DNA from: Cytophagales bacterium | Lineage (GTDB): Bacteria; Bacteroidota; Bacteroidia; Cytophagales; Thermoflexibacteraceae | Assembly (NCBI GenBank): GCA_013299115.1 | Contig: JAAFKA010000022.1 | Coordinates: forward strand, 1-64,000 | Direction: 5' to 3' | DNA: 64,000 nt | Shown: positions 851 through 42,111 of the stretch, piece by piece | How the letters are laid out: every line of letters begins with the position of its first letter | How positions within the stretch are numbered: position 1 is the stretch's first letter | Notes under the pieces: model-generated | The model's input: the letters and a program-made list of their open reading frames with translations, nothing else | What the model was told of the DNA's origin: nothing | The model's database searches: none | Position numbers and translations under genes: made by a program

Positions 851-1039
851 TGTAGAACGGACTTTAGTCCGTTTATTGCACCTTTGCGATGAGGCTGTCC
901 GAAAAGGCAAAAAAATGAAAAAACTTAAAATGTAACTACTTAATTATCAATTAGTTACATTTTGTAATATTCCAAAATTTTGCCTTTTCGGACAGCCTCA
1001 TTGCACCTTTGCGATAAACGGACTAAAGTCCGTTCTACA
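851..1039. repeat. Palindromic repeat (gaacggac class) split by a MITE
   Basis: Two perfect 24-bp inverted arms, 851-874 and 1016-1039, carry the core gaacggactttagtccgtt. The loop between them is the 109-bp element at 891-999 plus two copies of a 16-bp sequence. Without the insertion the repeat would be a hairpin with a 16-nt loop. Related repeats lie at 40770-40984, and a half copy ends at about 4112. Confidence 0.85.
891..999. mobile_element. 109-bp MITE with 22-bp terminal inverted repeats
   Basis: The ends gaggctgtccgaaaaggcaa (891) and its complement (ending 999) form a 22-bp perfect inverted repeat. Inside, aaaatgtaact and agttacatttt form a second inverted repeat, so nearly the whole element can fold into one hairpin. 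It is flanked on both sides by the identical 16-mer attgcacctttgcgat (875-890 and 1000-1015), which looks like a target-site duplication. It encodes no protein. The same terminal sequence gaggctgtccgaaaag occurs at 18279 beside a possible transposase remnant, which suggests that a related IS could have mobilised it in trans. Confidence 0.75.
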
Positions 1040-3296
1040 GTTTTTCCACAATTTTCATTGTTTCCACACTCACCCAACACACTTTTTGCAATAATTCTAT
1101 TACTTCTTCCTTATAATCTGCAAAATCGTAATTGTTAAAATGCTCTTGAATGGTTTTGTCGTCAGATTTATAGGGCTTGTATTGGTCTAAAATCCACTCA
1201 ATAGCACTTCGGTTACCCAACTTATACGCCAAAGCCTGTGCAGGAACTCCCGATAGAGTAGTGAGTTCGTCTATAAAGATTATATCATCTTTTATTCGCA
1301 AAATGGGAGATATAAGCCCCCTACCCCCCGAAGGAGGAACTGACGTGAGTTCGTCAAAAACTCCCCCTTCGGGGGCTGGGGGGCTTACATTTGGGCTTTT
1401 CTTTTTCCCTTGCACTTTTTCCAAAAACTCTGCCAACTCAATATCTTTCCTTTCCAAAAGTGGCGAATATTTATCGGGTGGCTTCGAGCCACCCGATAAA
1501 TCGTAATTCGTAATTTCTAATTCGTAATTCAAATGCAACTCCATCAACCTTTTCCCTGCCACTGCATATTTCCAAAAATCTGCGTACAAAGGAATACGAG
1601 GAAATTCACGTTTTAAATCTAATTCGTAAGTCTTGCGATAGTCTGGCGAATGTAAAACAGCGTAGATATAATGAAAGATATCTAACTTACAAAGCCCCCC
1701 AGCCCCCGAAGGGGGATGGTTCGGCACTCCGATTTTTGACGAACTCACGTCAGTTCCCCCTTCGGGGGTTAGGGGGCTATACGTTTGCTGAAAAACCGCC
1801 AAACCCCAATCCGTAATATTCTCTACTCTTTCGCCATTTTCGTAACGGTAAAAAGGAATAGACTGAGAAGCATCTAAAACATAAAAAGAATAACTTGGAA
1901 TTTGACGAGTAACCAAAGCTGCTAACTTAAGCCTGCCCCCTTCGTTTATTGTTATTATCAGGTTATCTTGGTCTAAATCTTTGCCCGAAATTTTATAGTG
2001 ATTGTCAGTTAATCTATCACTTAACATTTTTTCGGTATGGTAAAAGCAATTTACAAAAGGTCGCAAGGGAACTTCTATGATTTTAGTTTTATCAAAATTT
2101 ATTTTTCGCCTTTTATACAAATACTCTTTTAATGTACTACTCCATTTTATAGAATAGTCTAATTCTTCGTTAGCTATTTTTCCACTATCTACTTGTGCGT
2201 TGTATTTTTCTATAAGATGTTGCACTTTTTTAGCCAAATTTTCTTTGTCAAAATCAAAAACCCATTCATCTCTGTTGGTTTTATAGCCTCCTGTATAGAG
2301 TTCAAAAATAGCTTCTTTGCTTCTGCCGAATTTCACGTCTTTTGAGCAGAGGGGAATGAGAGTTTGGAAGTCGTTGTCGGTTTGGTTTATCCAGTTTCCT
2401 TTTTCGTCAGGTGTTATTCTCTCAAAAGGAATGTCCTCAAATTTAGTATCTTTGATAAGTTGCAGTTTTTCTGCCTTGCTGGGCATGGTGGGAAAACGAA
2501 AGTAGTAGATTTTTGCTTTTTTGGACATATATTTTTTTTGCATTTTTTTTGCATATTCAATCCACTGTTCGGGAAAATAGGTTGCAAATTGCAAACTGCT
2601 CAATTCTTGTTTGAGTTGTGCTACTGCTTTTTGTGGCGAGGCACTTGTTAGCCATAAATCTATTGTTAGCTTATGAGTTGCCTGAGCCAAAAGAGTTTGT
2701 TCTTCGGCTATTTTTTGAACTTTTTTTAATCCATTAGCTGTGTCTAAGTTAATAAACCATATCACGTTTTTTGTGTTTGCCTCTCCTATTGCTCTGTCTG
2801 CTATTAGTGTAGTTCCTGCCAATGGTTCGTTGGTGCTAAGGAGGTGTTCGTTGCCATTTTGGATAAAGGGTTGCATTACCAATACCTCAAATTTATTTTT
2901 CATGGCATTGGTATCATGTTCGGTTAGCAAATACGTTTTTCGGTATTTTTCCCATTCTTTTGCACCACTTTGCGTAATTTTCCCCCAACGCAAAGCCCCA
3001 TCATCAGGTGTAAGAATATTAGTATCGAGATAATTTTTAAGATTTTCGGCTACCCAGTTTTTTTGGGCGGGGTGCTTGCTAAGTTTTTGCTGAATTAATG
3101 TAAAATAGGGGTCTAAAATTCTAAACTGCACATTTGGAAAATAAGACAATAATAGTTCATTTGCCTGCTTTTTGTCTATTTCCCACGTTATATTTCCTGT
3201 CATTGTGTCATAGCAAACCAATGCCAAAATCAGGGTTTTATCGTCTGCTTGCGAATGGTGATATTCCAATGGGCAATATAAAGCTGTTGTTTTCAT
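1035..3296 (-). CDS. Chimeric protein: unknown N-terminus fused to the C-terminal half of a type ISP-like restriction-modification enzyme
   Basis: This 753-residue protein has two parts. Residues 1 to about 255 are unrelated to the neighbouring full-length enzyme. They may be a divergent DUF3037-like region (inference only), a family often found next to HipA-like kinases, which would fit the kinase fragment directly upstream. From about residue 262 onward it aligns with residues of about 640-1128 of the enzyme encoded at 4106-7492, and the last 90 residues are nearly identical. It lacks the nuclease and the methyltransferase motifs (no NPPY, no GTGTF), keeping only the coupler and target-recognition region. 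Three palindromic inserts are translated in frame (residues about 506-535, 598-610 and 637-661). The TAG stop lies inside the palindrome at 1016-1039. It starts in the 3-bp junction with the upstream fragment gene. It may be a relic, or a reservoir of alternative recognition sequence. Confidence 0.7.
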   Translation of the reverse strand: MKTTALYCPLEYHHSQADDKTLILALVCYDTMTGNITWEIDKKQANELLLSYFPNVQFRILDPYFTLIQQKLSKHPAQKNWVAENLKNYLDTNILTPDDGALRWGKITQSGAKEWEKYRKTYLLTEHDTNAMKNKFEVLVMQPFIQNGNEHLLSTNEPLAGTTLIADRAIGEANTKNVIWFINLDTANGLKKVQKIAEEQTLLAQATHKLTIDLWLTSASPQKAVAQLKQELSSLQFATYFPEQWIEYAKKMQKKYMSKKAKIYYFRFPTMPSKAEKLQLIKDTKFEDIPFERITPDEKGNWINQTDNDFQTLIPLCSKDVKFGRSKEAIFELYTGGYKTNRDEWVFDFDKENLAKKVQHLIEKYNAQVDSGKIANEELDYSIKWSSTLKEYLYKRRKINFDKTKIIEVPLRPFVNCFYHTEKMLSDRLTDNHYKISGKDLDQDNLIITINEGGRLKLAALVTRQIPSYSFYVLDASQSIPFYRYENGERVENITDWGLAVFQQTYSPLTPEGGTDVSSSKIGVPNHPPSGAGGLCKLDIFHYIYAVLHSPDYRKTYELDLKREFPRIPLYADFWKYAVAGKRLMELHLNYELEITNYDLSGGSKPPDKYSPLLERKDIELAEFLEKVQGKKKSPNVSPPAPEGGVFDELTSVPPSGGRGLISPILRIKDDIIFIDELTTLSGVPAQALAYKLGNRSAIEWILDQYKPYKSDDKTIQEHFNNYDFADYKEEVIELLQKVCWVSVETMKIVEKL
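1314..1385. repeat. In-frame G/C-rich palindrome in coding sequence (copy A1)
   Basis: An inverted repeat built on ccccccgaagga and ctcccccttcggggg lies inside the chimeric gene at residues 637-661 and is read without stops as a PPAPEGG to PPSGGRG peptide. The homologous position of the full-length paralog has a Lys/Glu-rich linker instead, so this is an insertion. Confidence 0.85.
1470..1500. repeat. In-frame 31-bp palindrome (atcgggtggc class)
   Basis: Arms tttatcgggtggc and gccacccgataaa flank a 5-nt loop and are translated as LSGGSKPPDK. The paralog at 4106-7492 carries an unrelated palindrome (4523-4556) at the equivalent place, just before PLLERKDI. Confidence 0.8.
1692..1779. repeat. 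In-frame G/C-rich palindrome in coding sequence (copy A2)
   Basis: Arms agcccccgaaggggga and tcccccttcgggggtt are translated as LTPEGGTDVSSSK through PPSGAGGL, between AVFQQTY and CKLDIFHYIY. The paralog has a different palindrome (4737-4842) between exactly the same two conserved blocks. Confidence 0.88.
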
Positions 3297-3862: not shown

Positions 3863-4105
3863 TCTACATCCAAGTCTAAGTTTGTCATAATGGTTTCTAA
3901 ATAGTTTTGGTTGGTATATTCATTCTTGATGTCATAGAGAGAAAAGTTTTTGTTCCCTGCCAATTTACCTTTGCCTTCTGTGGTTTATGGAATAAATGAA
4001 ACAGATAAAACTTAACTTGGCTACCAATATGAAGTCCGCAATAGAATTGACCTAAAGGGACAAAAAACAATTTCTTAGCTTAATAGCATTGGACTAAATC
4101 CCGTT
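3863..4105 (-). pseudogene. Scrambled coding remnants upstream of the kinase fragment
   Basis: On the minus strand, two stretches look protein-like but lie in different frames. One reads PLGQFYCGLHIGSQ and KFYLFHLFHKPQ. The other reads KLAGNKNFSLYD, then YLETIMTNLDLDVEW. Neither has a start codon. I do not recognise the family. The segment ends at 4091-4112 in half of the gaacggac palindrome, which marks a likely rearrangement point. Confidence 0.4.
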
Positions 4106-7100
4106 CTACAGTTTTTCCACAATCTTCATTGTTTCTACACTCACCCAACAAACTTGTTGCAACAACTCAATCACTTGTTCTTTATAGTCTGCAAAATCGT
4201 AGTTGTTAAATTGTTCTTGTATCGTTTTGTCATCAGATTTATAGGGCTTGTATTGGTCTAAAATCCACTCAATAGCACTACGATTGCCTAACTTATATGC
4301 CACAGCCTGTGCAGGAACTCCCGATAAAGTAGTGAGTTCGTCTATCAAAATAGTGTCGTCTTTTATTCGCAAAATAGGATTTATTTTAATTTCGGGTTCT
4401 TTAGCTTCTTCCTCAAAAAGTGCCGTTTTTTCTTTGCTAAATAACTCTTTTTCCTTTTTCTTCCCACGCAGTTTTTCTAAGAACTTAGCTAAATCAATAT
4501 CTTTACGTTCTAAAAGTGGCGTAAAGATGTCATCTTTTTTTAAAGATGACATCTTTTGTGGGCTTTCATAATTCAAATGCAATTCCATCAACTTTTTCCC
4601 TGCCTCTGCATATTTCCAAAAATCTGCATACAAAGGAATACGAGGAAATTCACGTTTTAAATCTAATTCATATTTTTTGCGATAGTCTGGCGAATGTAAA
4701 ACGGCATAGATATAATGAAAAATATCAAGTTTACATAACCCCACCCCCTGCCCCTCCCCTTCTGGGAGGGGAGTTTCACTCCCAGACATCGAAGATGTCA
4801 AAAACTCCCCTCCCAATAGGGGAGGGGCAGGGGGTGGGGTAAGGCTTGCATAATGATTTTGAAAAACCGCCAACCCCCAATCCGTAATATTCTCCACTCT
4901 TTCGCCATTTGCAAGATAGGTGTAAAAAGGAATGGAAAAAGCCCCTGTTGCTGGACTTGTAAAGTGCAAATCCATAATTTTATCTACAACCAAAGCCATA
5001 AAGGATTTTTGAGAGTTTGGGCTTGTAAAACAAATTACTTTATTTTCTTTGTCTAAATTTTCCCCAAACATAGCATAATGATTTTGAGTAAAAACATCAC
5101 TCAAATTTTTCTCGGAATACCAAAATTGTTTAGTAAAAGGTCTGTAATTAGCTATTCTTATTAAATTTTCGTCAAAAACAATACTTTGATTTCGCATAAA
5201 TTTGGCTTTCAAATCTCTACTCCATTTGATTTCTTCCCCCCAAATTTCAGGTTCGTCGACAAGTTGCGGTTTTTGCGGTTTTTTTTCTTTTACTATGGCT
5301 TTTTTATATTTTTCTAAGGCAATTTGATATTCTTGCTGTAATTTGGCTGCATTAGGTTTAGTTTGTTTTTTTAGTAATTCATTGTAAAGTGTAGCAAATG
5401 TTTTTATTTTGTTCAATAAATTTTCTTTGCTAAAATCATAAACCCATTGGTCTCTGTTGGTGGCAACGCCAAGCGTAGAAAGATGAAATAATTTTTCATC
5501 TTCTTGCTTATTTTCGTTATCACTTTCTGCCAAAGGCAAAAGATTTTGAAAATCAGAAACAGAAAGATTTATCCAATTATGGTTTTTGTCGGGGTTAATT
5601 TTTTCTTGTGGCAAGTTTTTGAGTTTGGTATCTTTTAGAATCTCCAATTTTTCTGCCCCCGAAAGTCCATCGCCTACATTGTAATAATAAATTCGATGAC
5701 TGTCTAATTCCTGATTTTTCACCAAAAACATCATAGCCACACCTGTCATAATATTAAACACATTTCCGCCTTGTGTGGTGTCGCCTGATGCTCGTACATC
5801 ACCTTTTAAATCTATAATATGAATTTCGTTAAAATCTTCTTTCATACACTTGCGAAAACCGTCATACGTTGTGCTATTGATAAAACTGCGGTTCGTAATA
5901 AAAGCCACAATTCCTGCATTATTCATTCTGTCTGTTGCCCAACGATAAAAACGTGCATACATATCATAAACCTTTGTTTTAGTAGCGTTGCTTTCTTGCA
6001 CATAAGTTTCCTTTATTCTGCCATCAACGCCACCTTTTTTTTGGTCATAATGTGTGTAATATTCCCTATTTTTGTTATTATCATTTTCGTTTTGTTGGTT
6101 GGCATTATAAGGCGGATTGCCAATAATTACCGTTAAAGGTTTGCTATTTTGGTTAGCAATTCTTTTGTTATTTTCTGCCAAAATATCAGCCTCTTTAAAC
6201 ATATTCATAGCTTTTTTGCCATAATTTAAAGCTGCCAAACTATCCAAAGTGTCCACCCAACAAATATTTTTAAACTCTACATAATCTCCCATCTTTTGCT
6301 TATAAACATATTCTATGTTGAGATTTGCAATATAATAAGGCAAAATAGAAACTTCGTTTGCGTGTAATTCGTGTTCGTATTTATGTTTTAGCGAATGTGG
6401 ATTTAGTTTTTTTATGAGGTGCGTAATAAAAGTTCCTGTACCTGTGGCGGGGTCGAGAATATGCACATTTTTGTCGGAAAGTGTCTTTTCAAAATGTTTT
6501 TCGAGCAAATATTCCGTAGTGTCCAACATAAAATTGACAATTTCCGAAGGCGTATAGACTATGCCCAACTTGTCGGCAGCTTTGGGGTTGTAAGCCTGAT
6601 AAAAGTTTTCGTAAATGGTTTTCAAAAAATCTTGCTTTTCTTCGTGTGCCAACAAAGATTTAGCCTGTGCTTCAATTACTTTGTAATAGGGTTCAATCTC
6701 TTGGCGGGTGTTGCGTTTCAATTCGCCTGTAAAAAATGTTTTTTCTACTTTATTGAGTGCCATCGCAATATTATTTTCGTCTAAATATTGGTCTGCATCA
6801 AACACTTTACGGAAAATATCACCTGTCAAGATATGCTGCACAATAATCTCATTCACATCAGCTTTTGTAACATCAGGGTTAATGGAGTTTTTACAAATCT
6901 CAAAAAGCTCTTGGTGGGCTTTTACAAAATTTTGGTTAAAATCTTTGTCATTATCTATCAAGTTTTGTTCTGTTCCCACAAAACCATCAATCATTTTTTT
7001 AAGAATATTCGCCACTTTTCCCACTTCTTTTCTAAATAATTCAACGGCTATTTTAAAATCAGTTGCCTCTTTTCTCTCAAAACTTACAAATTTTTCAAGC

Positions 7101-7492
7101 AAGGCTTTCAGTGCTTTTGCATCAGTCATGTCGCAAGTTTCACGCACATCTCCACGAATAAGCATAGCTTTTTGTGAATTTTCAAAAAGCAAATTGTCCG
7201 TTGGGTAGCCAATTTTTATTTTTTGGTTCAGTTCTTTCTCAAAGTCATCTTTTAAATCCTTTGCCTCCCAATAGCCATACCGAAACCGAAACCTGTCTAT
7301 CAGCACGCCATCAGGTTGTTTAGGAGAATTTGGTATTTTCACTTCATCAACCAATCGCAAATTTCTATCTTTTGCAAAATAACTAAGCAACTCCGCAAAA
7401 GGTCTGCGGAGAGAAGTTTCTTTTACTTCGCCCGAAAATTGCTTGATTTCGTATAGTTCGTTATAATATTGGTGTATGCGGGCAATAGACAT
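4106..7492 (-). CDS. Type ISP-like single-chain restriction-modification enzyme
   Basis: The 1128-residue protein combines DNA cleavage and N6-adenine methylation. Residues 58-78 hold a PD-(D/E)XK-type nuclease signature (PDGVLIDRF, then YWEAKD). S-adenosylmethionine motif I is LDPATGTGTF at about residue 346 and catalytic motif IV is NPPY at about residue 457. The C-terminal 450 residues match the coupler and target-recognition region (type ISP C-terminal family). Unlike classical type ISP enzymes, no Walker-motif helicase is visible between nuclease and methylase, so a type IIG-like architecture is also possible. Two palindromic inserts are translated in frame at residues 883-918 and 977-989. 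The TAG stop and the bases after it are a half copy of the gaacggac palindrome, as in the chimeric copy. It probably acts as a stand-alone phage-defence enzyme. Confidence 0.85.
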   Translation of the reverse strand: MSIARIHQYYNELYEIKQFSGEVKETSLRRPFAELLSYFAKDRNLRLVDEVKIPNSPKQPDGVLIDRFRFRYGYWEAKDLKDDFEKELNQKIKIGYPTDNLLFENSQKAMLIRGDVRETCDMTDAKALKALLEKFVSFERKEATDFKIAVELFRKEVGKVANILKKMIDGFVGTEQNLIDNDKDFNQNFVKAHQELFEICKNSINPDVTKADVNEIIVQHILTGDIFRKVFDADQYLDENNIAMALNKVEKTFFTGELKRNTRQEIEPYYKVIEAQAKSLLAHEEKQDFLKTIYENFYQAYNPKAADKLGIVYTPSEIVNFMLDTTEYLLEKHFEKTLSDKNVHILDPATGTGTFITHLIKKLNPHSLKHKYEHELHANEVSILPYYIANLNIEYVYKQKMGDYVEFKNICWVDTLDSLAALNYGKKAMNMFKEADILAENNKRIANQNSKPLTVIIGNPPYNANQQNENDNNKNREYYTHYDQKKGGVDGRIKETYVQESNATKTKVYDMYARFYRWATDRMNNAGIVAFITNRSFINSTTYDGFRKCMKEDFNEIHIIDLKGDVRASGDTTQGGNVFNIMTGVAMMFLVKNQELDSHRIYYYNVGDGLSGAEKLEILKDTKLKNLPQEKINPDKNHNWINLSVSDFQNLLPLAESDNENKQEDEKLFHLSTLGVATNRDQWVYDFSKENLLNKIKTFATLYNELLKKQTKPNAAKLQQEYQIALEKYKKAIVKEKKPQKPQLVDEPEIWGEEIKWSRDLKAKFMRNQSIVFDENLIRIANYRPFTKQFWYSEKNLSDVFTQNHYAMFGENLDKENKVICFTSPNSQKSFMALVVDKIMDLHFTSPATGAFSIPFYTYLANGERVENITDWGLAVFQNHYASLTPPPAPPLLGGEFLTSSMSGSETPLPEGEGQGVGLCKLDIFHYIYAVLHSPDYRKKYELDLKREFPRIPLYADFWKYAEAGKKLMELHLNYESPQKMSSLKKDDIFTPLLERKDIDLAKFLEKLRGKKKEKELFSKEKTALFEEEAKEPEIKINPILRIKDDTILIDELTTLSGVPAQAVAYKLGNRSAIEWILDQYKPYKSDDKTIQEQFNNYDFADYKEQVIELLQQVCWVSVETMKIVEKL
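4523..4556. repeat. In-frame 15-bp-arm palindrome (aaagatgtc class)
   Basis: Perfect arms aaagatgtcatcttt and aaagatgacatcttt are translated as KMSSLKKDDIF. They sit just before PLLERKDI, the position that carries a different palindrome in the chimeric paralog. Confidence 0.8.
4737..4842. repeat. In-frame G/C-rich palindrome, class B, in coding sequence
   Basis: Long inverted arms (ccccaccccctgcccctccc and complement) flank a short spacer. They are translated as LTPPPAPPLLGGEFL through PLPEGEGQGVG without stops. A near-identical element lies between genes at 42250-42376, which shows that it is a dispersed repeat and not part of the enzyme family. Confidence 0.88.
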
Positions 7493-8472: not shown

Positions 8473-11091
8473 TTATTCACTATCAGAAAAGTTTTTGTAA
8501 ACTTCTAAGAATAAATCAATAGTTGCTTTATCAATACCCATATTTTGCAAAACAAAATAAGCAGTCCAAGAGGCTGCTAAGGTAATCCCAGAAGAAGCTA
8601 ATTTTTCTACTATTTTACCCAAAATTGCTTTTGCTTTACTTGTATTTTCGCTGCCTTTAACTTCTTTAATTGTAGCAATGCTTTCTACAATTTCTTGCTT
8701 AGTTATAGTTGGCAATTTTTGTATATTTTCTTGTAATGTTGTTTCTACTTCTTCTTGTTGATTAAGATGTTTTAATAGTCTTTTGGCAAAGGTTTCAAGT
8801 TCCTCGTAAAATTCAAACCCTTTATCACCACTAATAAATCTTTTCTCAAATCTATTTAAAGATGTTTTGTCTTCCCTACGCACTTTTGGATTAGAAATAA
8901 CCTCATTCATTGCGTCAAAATAAACAGCAATAGAAGCATTTTCTATTGCGGTAAGTGCTTTCTTAATATGTTGCGAAAAGTGCATATTGGTAGTATTTTT
9001 TTGTTTACCAAATAAAAACCAAAAATCTTTCATTTGCAAAATTTCTCCTTGCAAAGATTTAATTTCCTTTGCTTTTCTTTCAAAATTATCTTTACACTCT
9101 GTATAAACAACAAAGTCTTTTTGATTTACAGAAATTTCTGTTTTTGCATTTTTGCCAAATTCTACAAAAGCATTACAAACTTCTTGTAATAACTTGTTAT
9201 TATCTTGATTTATAAATGCATAAACATATAAATCTGTTGCATTTTCACGAACTACAATACAATTACTATAATATTTAGTAAAGTAAATTCCATTTTTCCA
9301 ATATTCATCTTTGGCAAAAGAACCATAACGACTAAGAAAGTTAATCATTACATTGTCAGGCATAAAAGTAGCAAAACGAAATATTAATTTTAAACTTGCC
9401 ATATCAAACTGGCTTTGAAAAACTTTATTATTTTCTAAATTTTCGGGCAAATATTGTGGAGAAATCCAAAAAGTTTCATTTCTATCTTGTACTTCAAATA
9501 GCAATTCAAACTTTTTAAATAATTCTATTAACTCAAATTTTTCATAATTTGGTAAATTTTCTTTCAAATAATCAAGGCTAATTTTGCCTTTTATTTTATC
9601 ATCGTCTAACTTGTTGTTTATCAAGCTATAAACTTGTTTTGTTAGCCATTCTGGATTTATATAAATTTTGTCTTGTAATTTTTCGTATTTTTCATAATGT
9701 ACCACTAAACCCGTGCTATCCAAATAAGATAACAAACTATTTTCGCCTCCTTCGCTGATATTTGCATTGCGACAAATCGTATTTACAAATTCAGAATAAG
9801 AAATTACATTTTCATTTTTGCGATTTTCTATTTCTAAAATTACATTTTCGTAAGTTTTAGGAAATTCCTGACCATACATAGTTAAGCTATTCAAATGCTG
9901 CGTAATAGCATTTTTCAGTTCCTCCAAACCAAAACTTTTTGAAGCACTAAAATTTAAAAATTCGGTTACGTTGTAGTCTTTTTTTAACAAAGTTTCGTTA
10001 ATAGCTGTTTTAGTGCAATCTGTATGTGTTTGTACCATCAAAATAGGGCTATTTTTTGCATACCTGCGAATGGTATCTAACCAATATTCGCAAGACTGCC
10101 ATTTTTCGGGTTCGTTATTTGGCAAAACATCAGTATCTTTTTCTCTGTATACAAGCACATTTTTTTCGTCTGTCCACGCCAAAATATAAAGTACATCATC
10201 ACGCATAAAAAACTGGTGTGTAGCATAAAATACTTCTTGTCCGCCAAAATCCCAAACATTTAATTTTAGCTTTTCTGTTTTGGCTTCGGGCAAATTTTCT
10301 TTTTCTAAAATGCCTATGTTAATACCGTGTGTGTAATTTTCGTTTTCATCAAATGCTAATCCTTTCAGTTTTTTGAACATCGAAGTTTTGCCAACTCTGC
10401 CATTACCTACAATAATTAATTTTACGGTTTCGTTGATAATAGAACCTTTTTCGAGTTCTGTGAAGTAGTTTTTAAGGTCTTGAAGGCAATTTTCTTCTTT
10501 ATCAAAAACCTCTTTGGGTATGTTTTTTATTGGATTACCTCTTAAATTTAAAAATTCTAAGTAAAAAAAAGAGTTAAGAAAATTTTGTTGAATAATTGAA
10601 ATTTGATTGTGTTTTAAATCTAAACTTGTTAAATTTTTTAATCTTGTTAAAAATGATATATCAGAAATCTTATTATAACATAAATTTAAATCTTTCAAAT
10701 TAATCAAGTTTTGCAAAAAGGAAATATCAGAAATTTTATTTGACAATAAACGTAAATACTCCAAATTAAGTAAGTCTTGCAAAAAGGAAGTATCAGAAAT
10801 TTGATTACCACCTAAATGTAATGCTTTCAAATTAGTCAAGCCTTGCAAAAAGGAAATATCAGAAATTAAATGATTATTAAATAAATTTAAACTTATTAAA
10901 TCAGTAAAACCTCGTAAAAATGAAACATCTTCTATAATACAAAAATATAGATTTAATCCAATAATTTTTTTGTTTGTATCAAGTAGATAAACTCTTGGTG
11001 TTTTCCAACCCAAAATATCATCAGGATTTTTCGTTTCCACCAATTTAAACCACGATTTTTTTTCCAATTCTATAATCTCCTTTGGCTTCAT
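8473..11091 (-). CDS. Roco protein: leucine-rich repeats plus Roc GTPase and COR domain
   Basis: The 872-residue protein begins with about seven leucine-rich repeats of 21-22 residues (residues 45-205, recurring unit ISDISFLQ-NL-L-L--N). A Roc GTPase follows, with P-loop GNGRVGKTS (about 227), DFGGQE (about 280), THTD in the base-recognition position (about 355) and a SAS loop. A COR-like dimerisation region covers roughly 430-650. The C-terminal 200 residues are a mixed helical region ending in a hydrophobic stretch (SSGITLAASWTAYFVLQNMG). I do not recognise a kinase or protease. Bacterial Roco proteins act as nucleotide-dependent switches with poorly known outputs. Its place between an RM cassette and duplicated gene ends suggests an acquired gene, possibly defensive. 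Confidence 0.85.
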   Translation of the reverse strand: MKPKEIIELEKKSWFKLVETKNPDDILGWKTPRVYLLDTNKKIIGLNLYFCIIEDVSFLRGFTDLISLNLFNNHLISDISFLQGLTNLKALHLGGNQISDTSFLQDLLNLEYLRLLSNKISDISFLQNLINLKDLNLCYNKISDISFLTRLKNLTSLDLKHNQISIIQQNFLNSFFYLEFLNLRGNPIKNIPKEVFDKEENCLQDLKNYFTELEKGSIINETVKLIIVGNGRVGKTSMFKKLKGLAFDENENYTHGINIGILEKENLPEAKTEKLKLNVWDFGGQEVFYATHQFFMRDDVLYILAWTDEKNVLVYREKDTDVLPNNEPEKWQSCEYWLDTIRRYAKNSPILMVQTHTDCTKTAINETLLKKDYNVTEFLNFSASKSFGLEELKNAITQHLNSLTMYGQEFPKTYENVILEIENRKNENVISYSEFVNTICRNANISEGGENSLLSYLDSTGLVVHYEKYEKLQDKIYINPEWLTKQVYSLINNKLDDDKIKGKISLDYLKENLPNYEKFELIELFKKFELLFEVQDRNETFWISPQYLPENLENNKVFQSQFDMASLKLIFRFATFMPDNVMINFLSRYGSFAKDEYWKNGIYFTKYYSNCIVVRENATDLYVYAFINQDNNKLLQEVCNAFVEFGKNAKTEISVNQKDFVVYTECKDNFERKAKEIKSLQGEILQMKDFWFLFGKQKNTTNMHFSQHIKKALTAIENASIAVYFDAMNEVISNPKVRREDKTSLNRFEKRFISGDKGFEFYEELETFAKRLLKHLNQQEEVETTLQENIQKLPTITKQEIVESIATIKEVKGSENTSKAKAILGKIVEKLASSGITLAASWTAYFVLQNMGIDKATIDLFLEVYKNFSDSE

Positions 11092-11182: not shown

Positions 11183-14100
11183 TTACTTCAACCCCTCCCA
11201 CAAAATCTCCACCAAATGCTTTGCCACCCGACCAGTTCCGTCTTTAATTTGGTGTCTGCAACTTGTGCCGTTGGCTGCAATAATCACGTTTTCAGGTTGT
11301 TGCCTCACCGTTGGAAACAAGACTAATTCGCCGACTTGCATCGACACCTCATAATGTTCTTTTTCGTAGCCAAAACTTCCCGCCATTCCGCAGCAACCAG
11401 AACGGATAAGATGCACCTCATAATTTTGCGGAAATTCCAACACTTTTTTAGTGGGTGTCAAACTTGCTAAGGCTTTTTGGTGGCAATGTCCGTGCAGTTT
11501 TATCAACCTTTTTTCAGTCGTAAACTGTGCTTTTGTGATATTTCCTTTGTCAATTTCACGAGCCAAAAACTCATCAATCAGCAACGCATTTTTTGCAATT
11601 CGTTGAGCATCAGGCTTTTGATAATCATTCACCAAATCCAAATATTCATCTCTAAACGTCAAAATTGCCGAAGGTTCTAAACCAATCAAAGGAGTTTCCT
11701 CTGTAATTTTATCTTTCAATAACTCAACATTTTCTATCGCAAGTTTCTTTGCATCTTTCAATAAACCCTTAGACAAATAAGTACGCCCACTTTCCACGTG
11801 AGTAGGAATAATGACTTCATAACCCAATTTCTGCAATAGTTTCATGGCAGTAATTCCCATTTCCACATCATTGTAATTGGTAAATTCGTCTGCAAAAAGG
11901 TAAACAGTGCCAAGCCCCGAAGCCGAAGCCCCCCAACCCCCGAAGGGGGAGTTTGACGCATTTACGTCAGCACCCCCTTTGGGGGCGGGGGGGGCTACTT
12001 CGGGGGTTAGGTGGCTATTTTTTTCATACCACTTTTTCAAAGTCGTTTTATAGACTTTTGGCATACTTCTTTTGGCAGCAAAACCCGAAATTCCTTTAAT
12101 TAGAGTTGACGTGAAACTGTTGGTTATCAAGAAGTTATACAAACGTGGCGTAGTCATTGCCAATTCTTGTGAGGCTGTAAAATTCGCAATTAATTGGCTA
12201 CGCAAAGGCACGCCATTTTTTTCGTAATAATGGTGCATAAATTCGGCTTTCAATTTCGCCAAATCTACATTACTCGGACATTCAGATTTACAACCTTTGC
12301 AACTCAAACACAAATCCATAACTTCTTTTACTTCGTCTGCGGTTGTCCCTAACCCCGCAAGGGCTTCAAGCCCTTGCGGGGTTTCCTGTTGTTTAGTTAA
12401 ATATTCTCTTAAAATATTTGCCCTTGCCCGTGTGGTATCTTTTTCGTTGCGAGTTGCCATAAAACTTGGACACATTGTGCCACCCGATAATTCCGTTTTG
12501 CGACAATCTCCCGAACCATTACAAAGTTCAGTAGCACGCAAAATGCCATCGTCAAAATTGAAAACGGTAGCCCCAACGCCAAGCCCCGAAGCCCCCAAAC
12601 CCCCAAAGGGGGCTTTTGACGTAATTTCGTCAGCACCCCCTTCGGGGGCGGGGGGGGCTTGATACCTTAGGCTTTCATTCATTGGTGGCGTATCCACAAT
12701 TTTATTTGGGTTAAAAATATTGTCTTTATCCCAAGTTCGTTTGATTTCCTTAATCAGTTCATAATTTTTTGCACCAATCATTAGCGGAATAAACTCACCA
12801 CGCAACCGACCATCTCCATGCTCTCCACTCAAAGAACCCTTATATTTTTTGACCAAATGGGCAACTTCGGTAGCAATAGTTCTAAACTGTTGGTTGCCCT
12901 CTGCGGTTTTGAGGTTAATGATAGGTCGCAAATGCAATTCGCCACTTCCTGCGTGTGCATAGTGTACGGAATACATATCGTGCTTTTTCAAAATCTCGTT
13001 AAACTCTCTAATATATTCAGGCAAATCTTGCACATCTACCGCCGTATCTTCAACCACACAAACAGGTTTTGCATCACCTTTGATATTTGACAACAAACCC
13101 AAACCTGCCTTCCGCAAAGTCCACACTTTTTTGCAATCCTCACCCCACAAAATAGGATAATGAAACCCAAAATTATTCGTTTTAAGGTCTGCAATTAAGT
13201 CTGCCATAATTTTTTCTACTTCAACTTTGTCATCTTTTGCAATTTCTACCACCAACAAAGCCTGCGGGTCTCCTTCCACAAAGAACCTATTTTGCAACTG
13301 TTCACGATTGGTTTTGGTACATTCCAAAATATAATGGTCTATCAATTCGCAAGCCGAAGGATTATATTTCAAAGCCACCAAATTTGCCCTTAAACTTTCA
13401 TCTATCGAATGGCAATGAATACACAACAAGGCTGCATTTTTTGGTGGTTTTGGCACAATATTCAACTTAATTTCAGTCAAAAACATCAGTGTTCCCTCCG
13501 AGCCACAAACCAATTTTGCTAAATTAAATTCCTCTGTACTTTCAGGCGTAAAAGGTTTCGTTTCAAGCAATAAATCAATAGCATAACCCGTATTTCTACG
13601 AGGAATAGAAGATTTTGGAAACTCTTTGCGAATTTCAGCTTGGTTTTCAGGGTTTGAGAGAATGGAAAACATTTGTTGATAAATCTCAGACGTAAGCCCC
13701 GAACTAAGCCCCCCTACCCCCGAAGGGGGAGTTTTTGACGTAGAAATTCCCCCTTCGGGGGTTAGGGGGCTTGTTATTGCTTTGAATGTCGTTTTTGTTC
13801 CATCACTCAAAAAACCTGTAACCTCCAAAGTATGTTCCCTTGTGCTGCCATAAACCACAGAATTTGAGCCACAAGAATTATTGCCTACCATTCCGCCAAT
13901 CATTGCCCGATTTGCGGTTGAGGTTTCGGGTCCAAAATACTTGTCAAATTGCGATAAATACATATTCAATTCATCACGAATTACCCCAGGTTGCACCTTT
14001 ACCCAATTTTCTTTTTCGTTGATTTCCAATATTTTAGTGAAATATTTGGACACATCAACCACAATTCCTTTGCCTACAACCTGCCCAGCTAAGGAAGTTC

Positions 14101-14308
14101 CCGCAGTGCGAGGAATTAGCGAGGTTTTGTGTTCCCTTGCAAAGTTGATGAGTTTCAGAATATCGTCTTCCGTTTTTGGCAAAGCAACCGCCAAAGGCAT
14201 TTCTCTGTATGCAGACGCATCTGTTGCGTAAAGTGTACGCATTGTTTGGTCATAATAAAATTCGCCTTGTAGAGAATTGGCGAGGTTTTGTAAAAGTTGT
14301 GTGTTCAT
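11183..14308 (-). CDS. FAD-linked oxidase with Fe-S domain (D-2-hydroxyacid dehydrogenase type)
   Basis: A fused flavoprotein and iron-sulphur protein of the D-lactate/D-2-hydroxyglutarate dehydrogenase group (YdiJ/GlcD-GlpC type). The FAD-binding PCMH domain contains PRTAGTSLAGQVVGKG near residue 70. The oxidase C-domain includes HAGSGELHLRP and GEHGDGR. Cluster motifs follow, CNGSGDC...CP and CLSCKGCKSECP. The C-terminal CCG region has HGHCHQKAL and SGCCGMAGSFG. ATG at 14308 (MNTQLLQ) is preferred over a GTG nine codons upstream. Four palindromic inserts are translated in frame, near residues 179-206, 549-577, 641-653 and 763-799. All lie in loops or linkers, and one of them sits between the flavin and Fe-S parts. 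It probably oxidises a D-2-hydroxyacid and passes electrons to the respiratory chain. Confidence 0.92.
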   Translation of the reverse strand: MNTQLLQNLANSLQGEFYYDQTMRTLYATDASAYREMPLAVALPKTEDDILKLINFAREHKTSLIPRTAGTSLAGQVVGKGIVVDVSKYFTKILEINEKENWVKVQPGVIRDELNMYLSQFDKYFGPETSTANRAMIGGMVGNNSCGSNSVVYGSTREHTLEVTGFLSDGTKTTFKAITSPLTPEGGISTSKTPPSGVGGLSSGLTSEIYQQMFSILSNPENQAEIRKEFPKSSIPRRNTGYAIDLLLETKPFTPESTEEFNLAKLVCGSEGTLMFLTEIKLNIVPKPPKNAALLCIHCHSIDESLRANLVALKYNPSACELIDHYILECTKTNREQLQNRFFVEGDPQALLVVEIAKDDKVEVEKIMADLIADLKTNNFGFHYPILWGEDCKKVWTLRKAGLGLLSNIKGDAKPVCVVEDTAVDVQDLPEYIREFNEILKKHDMYSVHYAHAGSGELHLRPIINLKTAEGNQQFRTIATEVAHLVKKYKGSLSGEHGDGRLRGEFIPLMIGAKNYELIKEIKRTWDKDNIFNPNKIVDTPPMNESLRYQAPPAPEGGADEITSKAPFGGLGASGLGVGATVFNFDDGILRATELCNGSGDCRKTELSGGTMCPSFMATRNEKDTTRARANILREYLTKQQETPQGLEALAGLGTTADEVKEVMDLCLSCKGCKSECPSNVDLAKLKAEFMHHYYEKNGVPLRSQLIANFTASQELAMTTPRLYNFLITNSFTSTLIKGISGFAAKRSMPKVYKTTLKKWYEKNSHLTPEVAPPAPKGGADVNASNSPFGGWGASASGLGTVYLFADEFTNYNDVEMGITAMKLLQKLGYEVIIPTHVESGRTYLSKGLLKDAKKLAIENVELLKDKITEETPLIGLEPSAILTFRDEYLDLVNDYQKPDAQRIAKNALLIDEFLAREIDKGNITKAQFTTEKRLIKLHGHCHQKALASLTPTKKVLEFPQNYEVHLIRSGCCGMAGSFGYEKEHYEVSMQVGELVLFPTVRQQPENVIIAANGTSCRHQIKDGTGRVAKHLVEILWEGLK
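11911..12016. repeat. In-frame G/C-rich palindrome in coding sequence (copy A3)
   Basis: Core arms are agccccccaacccccgaagg and its partner near 11971-11998, followed by an extra half arm (acttcgggggttaggtgg). The frame reads through as PPAPKGGADV and SPFGGWGASASGLG. Confidence 0.85.
12351..12384. repeat. In-frame 15-bp-arm palindrome (ccgcaaggg class)
   Basis: aaccccgcaagggct and its complement, separated by four bases, are translated as TPQGLEALAGLGT between a helical segment of the oxidase and its second Fe-S motif. Its sequence is unlike the A-type inserts. Confidence 0.78.
12579..12660. repeat. In-frame G/C-rich palindrome in coding sequence (copy A4)
   Basis: The arms (aagcccccaaacccccaaag and the complement ending near 12660) are translated as PPAPEGGADEITSKAPFGG between the flavin half and the first Fe-S motif of the oxidase. 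Confidence 0.85.
13693..13772. repeat. In-frame G/C-rich palindrome in coding sequence (copy A5)
   Basis: Arms agcccccctacccccgaagg and complement are translated as SPLTPEGGISTSKTPPSG in a loop of the FAD-binding domain. Confidence 0.87.
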
Positions 14309-14398
14309 ATTTTTTAGCTTTAATTTCGTTACCACATAGAAACATAGCTTTTTTCTATGTGAACTATGTAGCTATGTGGTTATTTTTTTATTTGATAA

Positions 14399-22781: not shown

Positions 22782-25400
22782 TTACAAATCCAACTGTTGA
22801 TTTACAAAAACAATCTCCTCATTTTCGTCAAGCACAATACCCACAGGACTATCTTTGTTGATTTTGCCCGATAAGATTTGCTTAGACAATTCATTCATCA
22901 GGTGTTTTTGCATCATCCGTTTCAGAGGTCTTGCCCCAAACTGCACATCATAGCCCATTTCGGCTAATTTGTCCAGCACATCAGGCGTAGCATCTATCAA
23001 AATTTCGTTTTGCACCTCCAACTGTTTTTTCAACTGCTCAAATTGGATTTTCACAATCTTACGCATTTGCTTTTTGCCCAAAGGTTCAAACATCACAATT
23101 TCGTCTATGCGGTTCAAAAATTCTGGTCTTACCACAGATTTTAACAGACTGAAAACCAACGTCTTAGCCTCATCGCCTAATTGGGCAAGGGTTTTATGCC
23201 CTTGTTCGGCTTCGTTAAATTTTTGCATTATCAAATCCGAACCCAAGTTAGAAGTCATGATGATAATGGTATTTTTGAAATTCGCCACCCTGCCCTTGTT
23301 GTCCGTTAGTCTGCCCTCGTCAAGCACCTGCAAGAGAATGTTAAACGTATCGGGGTGTGCTTTTTCAATCTCGTCGAGCAAGACCACGCTGTATGGTTTT
23401 CGACGAACTGCCTCCGTTAATTGCCCACCTTCGTCATAACCCACATACCCAGGCGGTGCCCCAATCAACCGACTAACGGCGTGCCTTTCCTGAAACTCCG
23501 ACATATCTATCCGCACCAGTGCATTGTCGTCATTGAACAGAAACTCTGCCAATGCCTTAGCCAATTCGGTTTTTCCTACGCCTGTTGTGCCTAAGAAAAT
23601 GAAACTGCCAATAGGTTTTTTCGGGTCTTGCAAGCCTGCACGACTTCTACGCACTGCATCGGCAATGGCTATGATTGCCTCCTCTTGCCCTGCCACTCTT
23701 TTGCCCAATTCTGCCTCCAAATGCAACAACTTTTCTTTTTCCGATTGCAACATTTTGGAAACAGGAATACCTGTCCATCGTGCCACGACTTCGGCTATGT
23801 TTTCGGCTGTTACCACTTCTTTCAAAATAGAATTTTCGCCCGCCACCTCTGCAAATTGCTTTTGAAAAGCTGCCAATTTTTGTTGCGTTTCTATCAGTGT
23901 GCCATACCTAATTTCGGCAACTTTGCCATAATCTCCCTCTCTTTCTGCCTTTTCTGCCTGCATTTTCAGGTTTTCTATTTCGGCTTTTGCTTGCTGAACC
24001 TGCGTGATTACGTCTTTTTCTTGTTGCCATTTTGCCTTTTTGCTATCCCTCACACCGTATAAATCAGCCAATTCTCTGGACAAAATATTTTCTTTTTCCA
24101 CATCATTTTCTCGCCGAATTGCCTCACGTTCAATCTCCAACTGCATAATTTTGCGTTGAATTTCGTCCAATTCTTCGGGCAAACTATCAATTTCAATCCG
24201 CAATTTGGCTGCTGCTTCGTCCATCAAATCTATTGCCTTGTCGGGCAGATAACGGTCAGAAATATAGCGGTGCGACAGCGTAACGGCAGCAATCAAGGCA
24301 TCATCTTTTATCTGTATGCCGTGGTGCAACTCGTATTTTTCCTTAATCCCTCGCAAGATAGAAATTGCATCTTCGGGACTTGGCTCATCTACTGTAATTG
24401 CCTGAAAACGTCTTTCTAATGCTTTGTCTTTTTCTATGTATTTTTGGTATTCTTTCAAAGTTGTAGCCCCTATTGCGTGCAATTCGCCACGTGCCAAGGC
24501 AGGTTTTAGCAAATTGGCTGCGTCCATAGCACTTTCGCCACCCGAACCCGCACCAATTAAGGTGTGAATTTCGTCTATAAACAACACAATTTGCCCCTCC
24601 GAGTCCACCACTTCCTTGATAACAGCCTTTAATCTTTCCTCAAATTCACCTTTATATTTTGCCCCTGCCACCAACAGCCCCATATCTAAGGCAAACAGGG
24701 TTACGCCACGCAAATTTTCAGGCACATCACCCTCAATAATTCGCTGTGCCAATCCCTCCACAATGGCGGTTTTACCAACTCCAGGCTGTCCAATCAGCAT
24801 AGGGTTATTTTTAGTTCGGCGTGTCAAAATTTGCAATACTCTGCGAATTTCCTCATCACGACCAATTACAGGGTCAATTTTGCCTTTGCGAGCCAAATCA
24901 TTCAAGTTTTTTGCATAACGGTCAAGAGAACGGTATTTGTCCTCTGCGGTTTGGTCTTTCACTGTTTCGCCTTTTCGCAATTCTTTGATGGTGGCAGTCA
25001 ATATTTTTTCTGTAAAACCTGCATCTTTTAGCAAAGTTGTAACCTTGTCTTTGCCCGCCAACAAACCCAACAAAATGTGTTCTATGGTTACAAATTCGTC
25101 TTTGAAAGTCTGCAAAAACTGTTCGGCTTTGTTCAGGGCAGCGTGGGCATCGTTAGACAAATAAGGCGAAGTACCCGAAGATTTTGGGTAAGTATTCACA
25201 AATTCGTCTATTTTTTGGTTTACCAAGTTCAAATTTGCCCCTGCTTTTTTGAAAATATAGCTCGTGATGTTTTCGTCAGCCGTCAATACGCCTTTCAACA
25301 AATGCCCTGTTTCTACTATTTGTTGCTGCCTTGCAGTTGCCAAACTCGTTGCGGTTTGCACTGCCTCTTGTGCCTTGATGGTGTAGTTATCGAAGTTCAT
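22782..25400 (-). CDS. clpB: ATP-dependent disaggregase ClpB
   Basis: The 872-residue length and order are those of ClpB: N-terminal double-helix repeat, first AAA module with GQPGVGKTA near residue 206 and [13 protein letters not shown], the middle coiled-coil domain at about 400-530, and a second AAA module with [12 protein letters not shown] near 610 and [11 protein letters not shown], ending in a small C-domain. ClpB works with DnaK to extract proteins from aggregates after heat stress. The coiled-coil M domain separates it from ClpA and ClpC. It has its own terminator. The 487 bp beyond its start contain no gene. Confidence 0.97.
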
Positions 25401-29405: not shown

Positions 29406-29502
29406 CTTAGCACGCAGATAACACTGATTTTACAGATAAAAACGCAGATTTTTTAATTTTTTTATCCGCAAAAATCTGCCTAATCTGCGTTATCTGTGTG
29501 CT
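29406..29502. repeat. Dispersed palindrome (gcacgcagataacactg class), copy 1
   Basis: cttagcacgcagataacact and the closing taatctgcgttatctgtgtg are complementary ends of a roughly 97-bp element containing two internal arms (tttacagat / atccgcaaa). It directly abuts the stop of the Fic gene. Other copies are at 30340, 35941, 38650 and 45586. Confidence 0.9.
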
Positions 29503-30339: not shown

Positions 30340-30440
30340 CGTCTTAGCACGCAGATAACACTGATTTTACGGATAGAAACGCAGATTTTTTAATTTTTTT
30401 TATCCGCAAAATCTGCCTAATCTGTGTTATCTGTGTGCTT
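30340..30440. repeat. Dispersed palindrome (gcacgcagataacactg class), copy 2
   Basis: Same orientation and almost the same sequence as the copy at 29406, including the leading cgtcttagcacgcagataac. The two therefore form direct repeats around the Fic gene. Confidence 0.9.
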
Positions 30441-35940: not shown

Positions 35941-36033
35941 CTTAGCACACAGATAATACTGATTAAGCTGATTTTACGGATAGAAAATTTAAAAATCAGT
36001 GTTTTATCTATAAAATCTGCGTTAGCTGCGTGC
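35941..36033. repeat. Dispersed palindrome (gcacgcagataacactg class), copy 3
   Basis: cttagcacacagataatact and the closing ctgcgttagctgcgtgc are degenerate arms. It lies between Uma2 paralog 2 and kdsA. Confidence 0.75.
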
Positions 36034-38540: not shown

Positions 38541-38649
38541 AATTTCGTTTCAAACTTGATTCCAAGGTTTGTTTCGGCTCTTAGTTTTTCAATTTGTTCA
38601 AGAGTTAGACTTGTGTATTTTGCTATTTTTTATAGAAAATAATATAAAT

Positions 38650-38733
38650 TGCACACAGATAACGCAGATGATACGGATTTTATACAGATTTTTTATCCGT
38701 TTTTTATCTGCAAAATCAGTGTTATCTGTATGC
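38650..38733. repeat. Dispersed palindrome (gcacgcagataacactg class), copy 4
   Basis: gcacacagataacgcagatg and the closing gtgttatctgtatgc are the arms. It lies 14 bp before the pyruvate dehydrogenase E2 stop codon, between convergent units. Confidence 0.8.
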
Positions 38734-40621: not shown

Positions 40622-40769
40622 ATAATCACAAAAAGAATGACCTTAATTAAATCTTAGAAACTCCAAAAACAACCTAATCACAATCTAAGTGCAAAAATTC
40701 AACTTTTGTTTTTTATCACGTTACCTTTGTAAAGTATTAGTACGGAATACAAGTTGTGTACTACTTACC

Positions 40770-40984
40770 GTAGAACGGACTTCAGTCCGTTTTTTGGGAG
40801 TTTGCAACAAAAAATACGTTTTTAGTTCAAACCTGATTTTGAGGCATAAAAAAACGGACTAAAGTCCGTACTTGCTGTAGAACAGACTTCAGTCCGTTTT
40901 TTGGGAGTTTGCAACAAAAAATACGTTTTTAGTTCAAACCTGATTGTGAGGCACAAAAAAAACGGACTAAAGTCCGTTCTACAG
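40770..40984. repeat. Two tandem gaacggac palindromes
   Basis: Two units (40770-40871 and 40876-40984), about 90% alike, each start with gtagaac(g/a)gacttcagtc and end with acggactaaagtccgt. Between the arms both hold ttgggagtttgcaacaaaaa and a further 35 bases in common. The tandem arrangement points to local duplication of one element. Confidence 0.88.
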
Positions 40985-41028: not shown

Positions 41029-42111
41029 ATGAAAACATTTGCTTTACTTTTCGCCTTCTGCCTTGCCCTTGGTTTCACAAGCTGCAAACACCACGAAGAA
41101 GAAAAAACAGTGAAAAATAATTTTTTGGCTACCAGCCCTGTAAAAATGGATACAGCCTTGATAAAAAATTATGTGTGTCAAATCCGTTCTATCAACCACA
41201 TAGAAGTTAGGGCTCTGGAAAAAGGTTATTTGCAAGAATTTTTTGTGGACGAAGGACAACCTGTAAAAAAAGGACAAGTGTTGTTTCAAATTGTGCCTTT
41301 GTTGTACCAAGCCGAAGCAAACAAAGCAGCAGCCGAAGCCAAATTTGCCGAAATTGAGTACCGTAACACCAAAAGATTGGCAGACAGCGGCATTGTAGCC
41401 CCTAACGAATTGGCTTTGTCAAGTGCAAAACTCGAAAAAGCAAAAGCTGAATTACAACTTATGCAAGTGCATTTGGGTTTTACCAAAATTGTTGCACCTT
41501 TTGACGGCATCATGGGACGTTTGCACGTGAGAAAAGGTAGTTTGTTAGACGAGGGTGATTTATTGACTACCTTGTCGGACAACAGCACCATGTGGGTTTA
41601 CTTCAATATGCCTGAACACGAATACATCACCTACCAAACCAACGCCAAAGGCACGAACCGCAGTACAGTGGGTTTGAGAATGGCAAACAACCAAATTTTT
41701 GACAACCCAGGCAAAATCGAGGTCATTGAGGCAGATTTTAACAACGAAACAGGTAACATTGCTTTCAGGGCTGCGTTTCCAAATCCCGACAGATTGCTTA
41801 GACACGGGGCAACAGGCAATATTATTATGACTGTTCCTGTTCCAAATGCTTTGCTTATTCCTCAAAAAGCTACTTTCGAAATCTTAGACAAAAAATTTGT
41901 GTTTGTGATAGACAAAAACAATGCAATCAAAACAAGAGAAATTACGATTGGTGCGGAGTTGGAAGACCTCTATGTAGTCAGTGAAGGATTGCAAAGCACC
42001 GACAACATTCTGCTCGAAGGATTGCGTAAAGTGAAAGAAAATGATGTGATAGCCTACACTCACGAAAAATCAAAAGACGTGATAGCCAACCTAAAAGTGT
42101 ATGTAGAGTAA
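41029..42111 (+). CDS. RND efflux membrane-fusion protein (AcrA/MexA type)
   Basis: The 360-residue lipoprotein (lipobox LALGFTSC, Cys19) has the barrel-sandwich halves EVRALEKGYLQEFFVDEGQP and APFDGIMGRLHVRKGSLLDE on either side of a helical hairpin, then a beta-barrel domain and a membrane-proximal segment ending near VENDVIAY. It links the inner-membrane pump (42407-45577) to the outer-membrane channel (45743-47182). The three genes are in order on one strand but are separated by palindromic repeats that may lower read-through. Confidence 0.93.
   Translation: MKTFALLFAFCLALGFTSCKHHEEEKTVKNNFLATSPVKMDTALIKNYVCQIRSINHIEVRALEKGYLQEFFVDEGQPVKKGQVLFQIVPLLYQAEANKAAAEAKFAEIEYRNTKRLADSGIVAPNELALSSAKLEKAKAELQLMQVHLGFTKIVAPFDGIMGRLHVRKGSLLDEGDLLTTLSDNSTMWVYFNMPEHEYITYQTNAKGTNRSTVGLRMANNQIFDNPGKIEVIEADFNNETGNIAFRAAFPNPDRLLRHGATGNIIMTVPVPNALLIPQKATFEILDKKFVFVIDKNNAIKTREITIGAELEDLYVVSEGLQSTDNILLEGLRKVKENDVIAYTHEKSKDVIANLKVYVE

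Follow-up and report, generated by a model that had tools for sequence, protein, structure and literature searches.

Palindromes translated in frame inside unrelated genes are known from Rickettsia, where they are called Rickettsia palindromic elements (RPE; for example, RPE-4 and RPE-6), and to our knowledge no translated palindrome has a known mover. Elsewhere, repetitive extragenic palindromes (REPs) are tied to RAYT transposases, and the RPE of R. conorii, which end in CGTC, are counted among the CGTC-tagged REPs (Di Nocera 2013), for which no dedicated transposase was reported (PMC3733652). A further related group is formed by the EDxHD homing endonucleases described in PMC3943268. Here, we analyzed the first 64,000 nucleotides of contig JAAFKA010000022.1 from a Cytophagales bacterium (assembly GCA_013299115.1; this whole stretch is hereafter called the window), in which an initial annotation had noticed palindromes translated inside a FAD/Fe-S oxidase gene. 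Most of these belong to a dispersed repeat, termed type A, some of whose sites in other host genes are occupied in other genomes by an in-frame DUF559 nuclease domain. That the in-frame palindromes and the DUF559 elements belong together is well supported, and we think it rather probable that the palindromes are short versions, lacking the nuclease, of a mobile element of the homing type that does without splicing.

The type A half-unit has the consensus T-CCCCC-TT(T/C)-GGGGG-(T/C)T(G/A)-GGGGG-CT over 218 distinct half-units, whose core may look over-conserved because the search pattern permitted 3 substitutions; it consists of a CCCCC/GGGGG stem, a loop of 3, and the tail TTAGGGGGCT. A type A dimer comprises two head-to-head half-units with a spacer that is often GACG-N6-CGTC. 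The CGTC/GACG tag, which was not part of the search pattern, was present at least once in 36 of 48 distinct short spacers (2.3 in shuffles), 18 of which carried both tags. Neighboring half-units less than 150 nt apart formed 75 −+ pairs versus 20 ++, 11 −−, and 2 +−, so the head-to-head arrangement predominates. Type B is a longer relative of type A. The relevant features of the window are as follows, RM1 and RM2 being two copies of a Type ISP restriction-modification (RM) gene.

11183-14335, minus strand: ORF of the FAD/Fe-S oxidase (host gene at 11186-14335), 1050 amino acids (aa), with Pfam matches to FAD_binding_4, FAD-oxidase_C, and 4Fe-4S
11911-12018, minus strand: type A dimer (11926-11996) with GACG/CGTC tags plus a truncated half-unit (11998-12018), at about aa 773-808 of the oxidase
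12351-12384, minus strand: 34-nt palindrome of a different family, in frame, at about aa 651-661 of the oxidase
12586-12659, minus strand: type A dimer in the oxidase, in frame, APPAPEGGADEITSKAPFGGLGA
13697-13772, minus strand: type A dimer in the oxidase, in frame, SPLTPEGGISTSKTPPSGVGGL
1035-3296, minus strand: RM1, host of two type A dimers
1314-1385, minus strand: type A dimer in RM1, in frame
1692-1779, minus strand: type A dimer in RM1 just before IFHYIYAVLHSPDYR, where three other genomes carry DUF559 with arms (G016, G192, and G245)
4106-7492, minus strand: RM2
4737-4842, minus strand: type B dimer in RM2, in frame, at the same codon site as 1692-1779 in RM1
42250-42376: type B dimer with a longer loop, between the open reading frames (ORFs) 41029-42111 and 42407-45577

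The initial annotation thus described the layout correctly: the oxidase holds four palindromes that are stop-free in the frame of the gene, three of one family and one of another; the same family recurs twice in the RM gene, and the second class (type B) is in frame at one place and intergenic at the other. Its description of the products as PEGG/PPSG-type peptides needs amending, since two oxidase copies have the right arm APFGGLGA or SPFGGWGA, not PPSG. The half-unit pattern with 2 mismatches matched the 5.5-Mb genome of the window 242 times, versus 18 times for the reversed control, and these counts exclude a chance origin. In the 69 stretches read (68 fetched and the window), we counted 240 half-units in 132 insertions (129 without duplicates), with compound and nested copies among them. 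Several genomes of the same family lacked type A half-units. No RNA family matched the window at the Rfam gathering threshold, and neither the oxidase DNA nor the element at 13697-13780 had a match among plasmid records. Compared with CGTC-tagged REPs, the type A repeat shares the tag in mid-dimer, the head-to-head dimers, and some intragenic copies; it is unmatched by the class as described in PMC3733652, which has a stem of 8-9 bp starting with A and T, a loop of 4-5, and a tail that is mostly CCA. By the same description, its stem, loop, and tail are also unlike the class that holds RPE-4 and RPE-6, with which it shares translation inside unrelated genes (84 of 129 insertions here in frame). 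The annotated likeness to RPE with another sequence, as dispersed in-frame insertions, is supported, and the present elements differ from RPE in their phylum and in having a nuclease-bearing form at the same sites.

That form was recognized in the methionine synthase ORF (metH) of the genome of the window (G000; G and L codes denote the genomes compared and the fetched loci, respectively), which contains a PF04480 (DUF559) domain (E 2.3e-34) bounded by type A half-units; likewise, in metH of G046, half-units at C49:23187 and 23634 surround DUF559 at 23286-23606. Altogether, we found six fixed sites that carry a short palindrome in some genomes and an in-frame DUF559 in others, namely, two in LeuS, two in MetH, one in Type ISP, and one in IcmF, and the LeuS and MetH sites were empty in further genomes. 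LeuS site 1 lies between NWIGKS and VFTTR in an alignment of 33 rows (G035, G110, and G158 were added because they bear DUF559); G000 and G031 carry type A there, G001 and G046 have hairpin inserts of other kinds, G009, G035, G110, and G158 carry DUF559, and elsewhere there are short linkers or a few longer ones. At LeuS site 2, between GEPPLGRAKDW and LSTMPGWAGSSWY, G000 carries type A, G028 has a long palindrome, G030, G031, and G046 carry DUF559, and most other rows are empty. In MetH, site 1 of G000 is occupied by DUF559, that of G001 by type B, and that of G006 by an insert resembling type B. At MetH site 2, G000 has type A; G046, G289, and three other genomes have DUF559; and G001, G006, and G035 have no palindrome. 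At the Type ISP site, just before HY.YAVLH.P.YR (DYIYAVLHSP in two), RM1 carries type A, RM2 type B, and G041 one half-unit, and the three genomes listed above carry DUF559 with arms. The IcmF site holds a compound type A in G000 and DUF559 in G267 and G313. At each of the six sites, at least one nuclease copy has arms scoring 14 or more (LeuS site 1, G035, G255, and G087; LeuS site 2, G031, G193, and G135; MetH site 1, G000; MetH site 2, G046 and G093; Type ISP, G016, G192, and G245; IcmF, G267). In these four gene families, which were chosen as DUF559 hosts, 6 of the 8 short sites of G000 coincide with a nuclease site elsewhere, and homologous genes of distant taxa have insertion sites in common (MetH site 2, LeuS sites 1 and 2, Type ISP, and IcmF). 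At a third LeuS site, G015 and G035 (alignment columns 1221-1336) carry a diverged insert, which is DUF559-like in G015 (PF04480 E 8.7e-10).

Arms were defined as an inverted repeat, scoring at least 14, that pairs the 300 nt preceding the domain with the 300 nt following it. They were present at 17 of 28 DUF559 loci of relatives (2 more, at edges, left unscored) and at 15 of 25 additional loci from the phylum (4 more, at edges, left unscored), or 32 of 53 when the Bacteroidota relatives and the phylum are pooled, as opposed to 1.8% of 3000 and 1.1% of 1309 random placements. None of 29 HNH control loci, scored in wider windows, had arms (Fisher p 5e-9), and 10 of 20 further fused DUF559 regions reached a score of 14 (L426 among them was scored at the wrong stretch). 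On plasmids, where DUF559 was found in 40 records, 8 of 14 fetched regions lay above the 99% quantile of 626 random placements; seven of these eight are alphaproteobacterial and one is from Deinococcus, and neither of the two cyanobacterial regions is among them. Some other plasmid regions have a half-unit on one side, as judged by eye. The DUF559 arm of the S. meliloti plasmid pSymB is itself a dispersed repeat, present at no fewer than 40 places there and at 901 places in 285 records; as a repeat dispersed in rhizobia, it may be likened to the RIME elements of these bacteria. Free-standing DUF559 genes also occur within operons, such as sufB-DUF559-sufC and paaD-DUF559-paaZ. At the plasmid loci L283, L284, L285, and L292, they lie within suf, transhydrogenase, and paa clusters and beside dnaG. 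Among phages, only 3 of 50,697 records contained DUF559.

DUF559 was found in 22 of 59 genomes, including G000, with 16 of 36 matches in open frames of at least 600 aa. The hosts identified were LeuS (4), MetH (3), MutS (1), PurL (1), Type ISP (1), and other DNA methyltransferase genes (3); in PurL of G040, the nuclease stands at the end of the ORF, not internally. In the phylum sample, which has a few DUF559 matches in common with the 59-genome set, the domain occurred in 170 of 296 genomes, 35 of the 150 matches listed lying in open frames of at least 600 aa, with LeuS, MetH, HsdR, IcmF, Type ISP, and a RecG-like helicase as further hosts. One HsdR-like protein (L344:175-3315) has both a GIY-YIG and a DUF559 domain in frame. 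Mfd was considered as a shared host and not counted, as four hosts matched the Mfd reference only weakly; the motif PPHILVMTATPIPRTLAMS in these four presumably marks them as RecG. No intein family appeared when 20 fused ORFs were compared with Pfam (E 1e-5 or 1e-8), and 10 fused loci gave no match, to a group I or II intron RNA or otherwise, at the Rfam gathering threshold. Residues D46, E57, D59, and H63 are invariant across 18 DUF559 sequences, and a profile of these 18 domains matches PDB 3hrl (Endonuclease-Like Protein, E 1e-35) and 3r3p (Mobile intron protein, E 6e-6), the latter of which we take to be I-Bth0305I. In PMC9403480, a DUF559 gene is assigned to the EDxHD homing family, and a Caulobacter DUF559 protein is described in PMC12907096 as provoking the SOS response in cells without a cytosine methyltransferase. 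The elements examined here resemble EDxHD/Vsr-like homing endonucleases such as I-Bth0305I in having a homologous nuclease domain, and differ from them in that no intron or intein was found, in that the nuclease is an internal domain of LeuS, MetH, MutS, HsdR, and other proteins, and in that it often stands between translated palindromes. With the REPIN/RAYT system, they share short paired palindromes and a nuclease-type partner, which here is a PD-(D/E)XK-type DUF559 inside the element instead of a flanking Y1 domain, and the copies in G000 are largely intragenic. A literature search by titles and abstract openings, with most subscription journals outside its coverage, found no link between DUF559 and palindromes.

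In a tree of the nucleases, those from HsdR fall into a single clade (4 of 4, support 99), and the MetH nucleases, with one exception among four, group together across bacterial families (support 94). Host labels, free-standing genes included, required 15 changes versus 22.5 when shuffled, and none of 200 shuffles was as low. Palindromes and nuclease also tend to occur in the same genomes. The tail motif GGGGYTRGGGG, minus its reversed control, had a median of 11.5 in the 22 DUF559 genomes versus 0 in the 37 others, with a p value of 1.4e-4 that is indicative only because the genomes are related and unlike in base composition. At least five tail motifs were present in 19 of 22 versus 8 of 37 genomes (14 of 22 versus 4 of 37 with the control subtracted).

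These data suggest the following course of events. The full form consists of a half-unit palindrome, a DUF559 nuclease (Vsr/EDxHD-like, PD-(D/E)XK), and an inverted half-unit palindrome. It sits in frame in conserved genes and would remain in the host protein as one of its internal domains, the nuclease being made whenever the host gene is translated. The nuclease may cut an allele that lacks the element, or a hairpin of the arms, after which repair would copy the element in, as in homing. Short forms, which occupy these sites and many others, may arise by loss of the nuclease or be mobilized in trans, and by either route, homing-type repair or action in trans, DUF559 would be what moves the palindromes. 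A tentative extension, possible and short of probable, is that a large class of G/C-rich REP-like palindromes, reaching across phyla, has its missing mobility enzyme in DUF559; in that case, the in-frame palindromes of G000, and perhaps other enzyme-less CGTC repeats and the Rickettsia elements, would be nuclease-less descendants of a splicing-free homing element that enters essential genes in frame.

Several observations weigh against a nuclease-borne origin of the palindromes. Twenty-one of the 53 scored DUF559 loci have no arms at the threshold, only 5 of 11 fused loci of the phylum sample reach it, and among the copies that fall short of it are those in LeuS of G110, G158, and G046, in MetH of G289, G319, and G130, and in the four RecG-like hosts. 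Three genomes (G041, G037, and G054) are rich in the tail motif and have no DUF559, a type A count of at least 10 is found in 4 of 22 DUF559 genomes versus 1 of 37 others (p 0.06), and G000 has one DUF559 for about 240 half-units. In the nuclease tree, a weak one in which 38 of 70 inner branches are open, the nucleases of LeuS (6 changes, 6.8 when shuffled) and of restriction genes (6 changes, 5.9 when shuffled) are not grouped by host. The insertions lie in variable linkers, where neither a target-site duplication, such as a MITE would show at clean insertions, nor an exact empty site was defined, and the sharing of sites may partly reflect a scarcity of linkers that tolerate insertions. Finally, in G031 and G041, for which 20 regions each were read, part of the places listed, most copies are not in-frame insertions in genes (8 of 42 and 7 of 32 are); with coding sequence on both sides, the frame was kept in 8 of 10 (p 0.003) and 7 of 12 (p 0.07), respectively.

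The main rival holds that nucleases home into pre-existing repeats: the palindromes would be REP-like repeats spread by another enzyme (a RAYT-type or other transposase) or by replication slippage at hairpins, and DUF559 would be a homing passenger that uses them as safe landing sites. We regard this as unlikely, with a real case to be made for it. The RAYT link of REPs elsewhere, the presence of Y1_Tnp matches in 38 of the 59 genomes (G000 has two listed in open frames), the three palindrome-rich genomes without DUF559, and the excess of half-units over nucleases all fit it, as do the flanking inverted repeats that 3 of 12 Y1_Tnp loci have of their own. Against it, the nuclease is located between the arms, and richness in the tail motif accompanies DUF559. 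At 15 Y1_Tnp loci (L120-L134) searched for type A and type B arms alone, the closest type A unit stood about 1.8 kb off, in L129, and the closest type B unit about 1.3 kb off, in L124. With neither kind of unit adjacent in the examined loci, a RAYT/Y1 transposase was rejected as the mover. A weak match beside an IS200-like gene (L110) was read as the terminal structure of that gene itself.

It is highly improbable that the palindromes are neutral hairpin DNA, produced by template switching or recombination without a dedicated enzyme and filtered for open frames. Their high G/C content, strong hairpins, location in linkers, and compound and nested copies would suit such an origin, which sits poorly with some 240 similar half-units, a core conserved in 218 of them (a comparison in which the search pattern favors conservation), the CGTC tags in three-quarters of the short spacers, and the several genomes of the same family that have no half-unit at all. 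Least probable of all, and only barely credible, is a host function of the peptides or messenger RNA hairpins kept by positive selection: the inserts are absent from most homologues and present in unrelated proteins, and what speaks for such a function is a frame that is never used by the copies with a choice, as detailed below.

By the dicodon coding score of both flanks, 84 of the 129 distinct insertions are in frame, and the others are coding on one side only (31), differ in frame (5), are non-coding (3), keep the frame with a stop (2), join opposite strands (1), or lie at edges (3). Where both sides are coding on the same strand, the count comes to 84 of 91 in frame and 7 breaking (binomial p 4e-32 versus one-third). 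The 84 in-frame insertions are spread over 54 host ORFs, about a dozen of which are similar gene copies; hosts include LeuS, UvrA, SMC, methylmalonyl-CoA mutase, IcmF, pyruvate carboxylase, ValS, Mfd, and acetate-CoA ligase, and 4 of 17 hosts scanned had no family at E 1e-20. The single fixed frame initially annotated holds for most copies and not strictly, as 34 of 40 distinct simple in-frame dimers use one frame, 5 a second, and 1 the third. On the strand used, 21 of the 40 have a single frame without stops. The other 19, for which more than one was available, use frame 0 (15 times) or frame 1 (4 times) and never frame 2, although 9 of them could have used it; stop codons are therefore not all that shapes the frame. 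Stops and length therefore account for much of the frame, and some selection on peptide or phase remains. Preservation is explained largely by survivorship, because in needed genes only stop-free copies that preserve the frame survive, and because the inserts lie in tolerant linkers. Of the two questions left by the initial annotation, what spreads the palindromes and why the frame is kept, the first thus has a candidate answer in DUF559, found at the same host-gene sites, and the second is largely answered. Translational bypass is unlikely, because the frame would then need no keeping (84 versus 7). The expected tryptic peptides of such elements include SPLTPEGGTDVNTSK. On contigs C41 and C47 of G000 (L054, L055, and L059), there are arrays of similar ORFs, mostly with one half-unit read as PEMGVTPPSGAGGLLLFNG or TSKTPPSGAGGL.

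In the oxidase itself, the inserts were compared with 30 homologues of the order, some of them partial. Type A is absent near aa 559-583 (the 12586-12659 copy) from all aligned homologues that cover the site. Near aa 780, only G046 (L104), from another family of the order, has type A half-units among the homologues covering the site, in the same linker and about 30 aa apart; it carries a second type A pair at aa ~267, where the window has none. This one genome speaks against strict clade restriction. Among the best 80 named oxidase homologues, out of at least 578 found, one (L178) has type A units, and it is probably the same genome as G046. Palindromes of other kinds stand nearby in relatives: type B-like ones in frame near aa 188 in G001, G006, G009, and G011, and yet others near aa 650 in G006, G009, and G011. 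The idea of clean insertions is thus borne out insofar as the inserts are nearly absent from homologues, and weakened by linkers of varying length and by the other palindromes near aa 188. In an AlphaFold2 model built from 25 sequences, whose fold is well predicted overall, with a mean predicted local distance difference test (pLDDT) score of 81, values below 50 are predicted at residues 1-9, 195-211, 559-588, 608-620, 652-664, 776-805, and 952-956. Four of these modeled segments (195-211, 559-588, 652-664, and 776-805) coincide with the inserts and three other short ones also fall below 50; low pLDDT at the inserts would be expected anyway, because the homologues lack them.

Other parts of the window contain further repeats and genes. 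The C-terminal stretches of RM1 and RM2 share 88-90% DNA identity, RM1 matching the C-terminal specificity domain only. Another dispersed repeat with the core ATCTGCGTTATCTGTGTGC (families D4, D9, and D12) is found at 29407-29501, 30344-30438, 35942-36033, 38648-38733, and 45583-45674, and a dispersed, partly tandem palindrome with the core ACGGACTAAAGTCCGT (D13 and D14) at 1016-1040, 4087-4111, and 40762-40984. The minus-strand gene at 8473-11091 encodes a large protein that, as judged by eye from the translation, combines leucine-rich repeats with a GTPase part of ROCO-like type.

Taken together, the link to DUF559 offers a candidate mover of translated palindromes that can be purified and assayed. 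What appears to be selfish DNA is found inside essential proteins (LeuS, MetH, and MutS) without splicing, which bears on how proteins acquire insertions and on the annotation and modeling of such genes.
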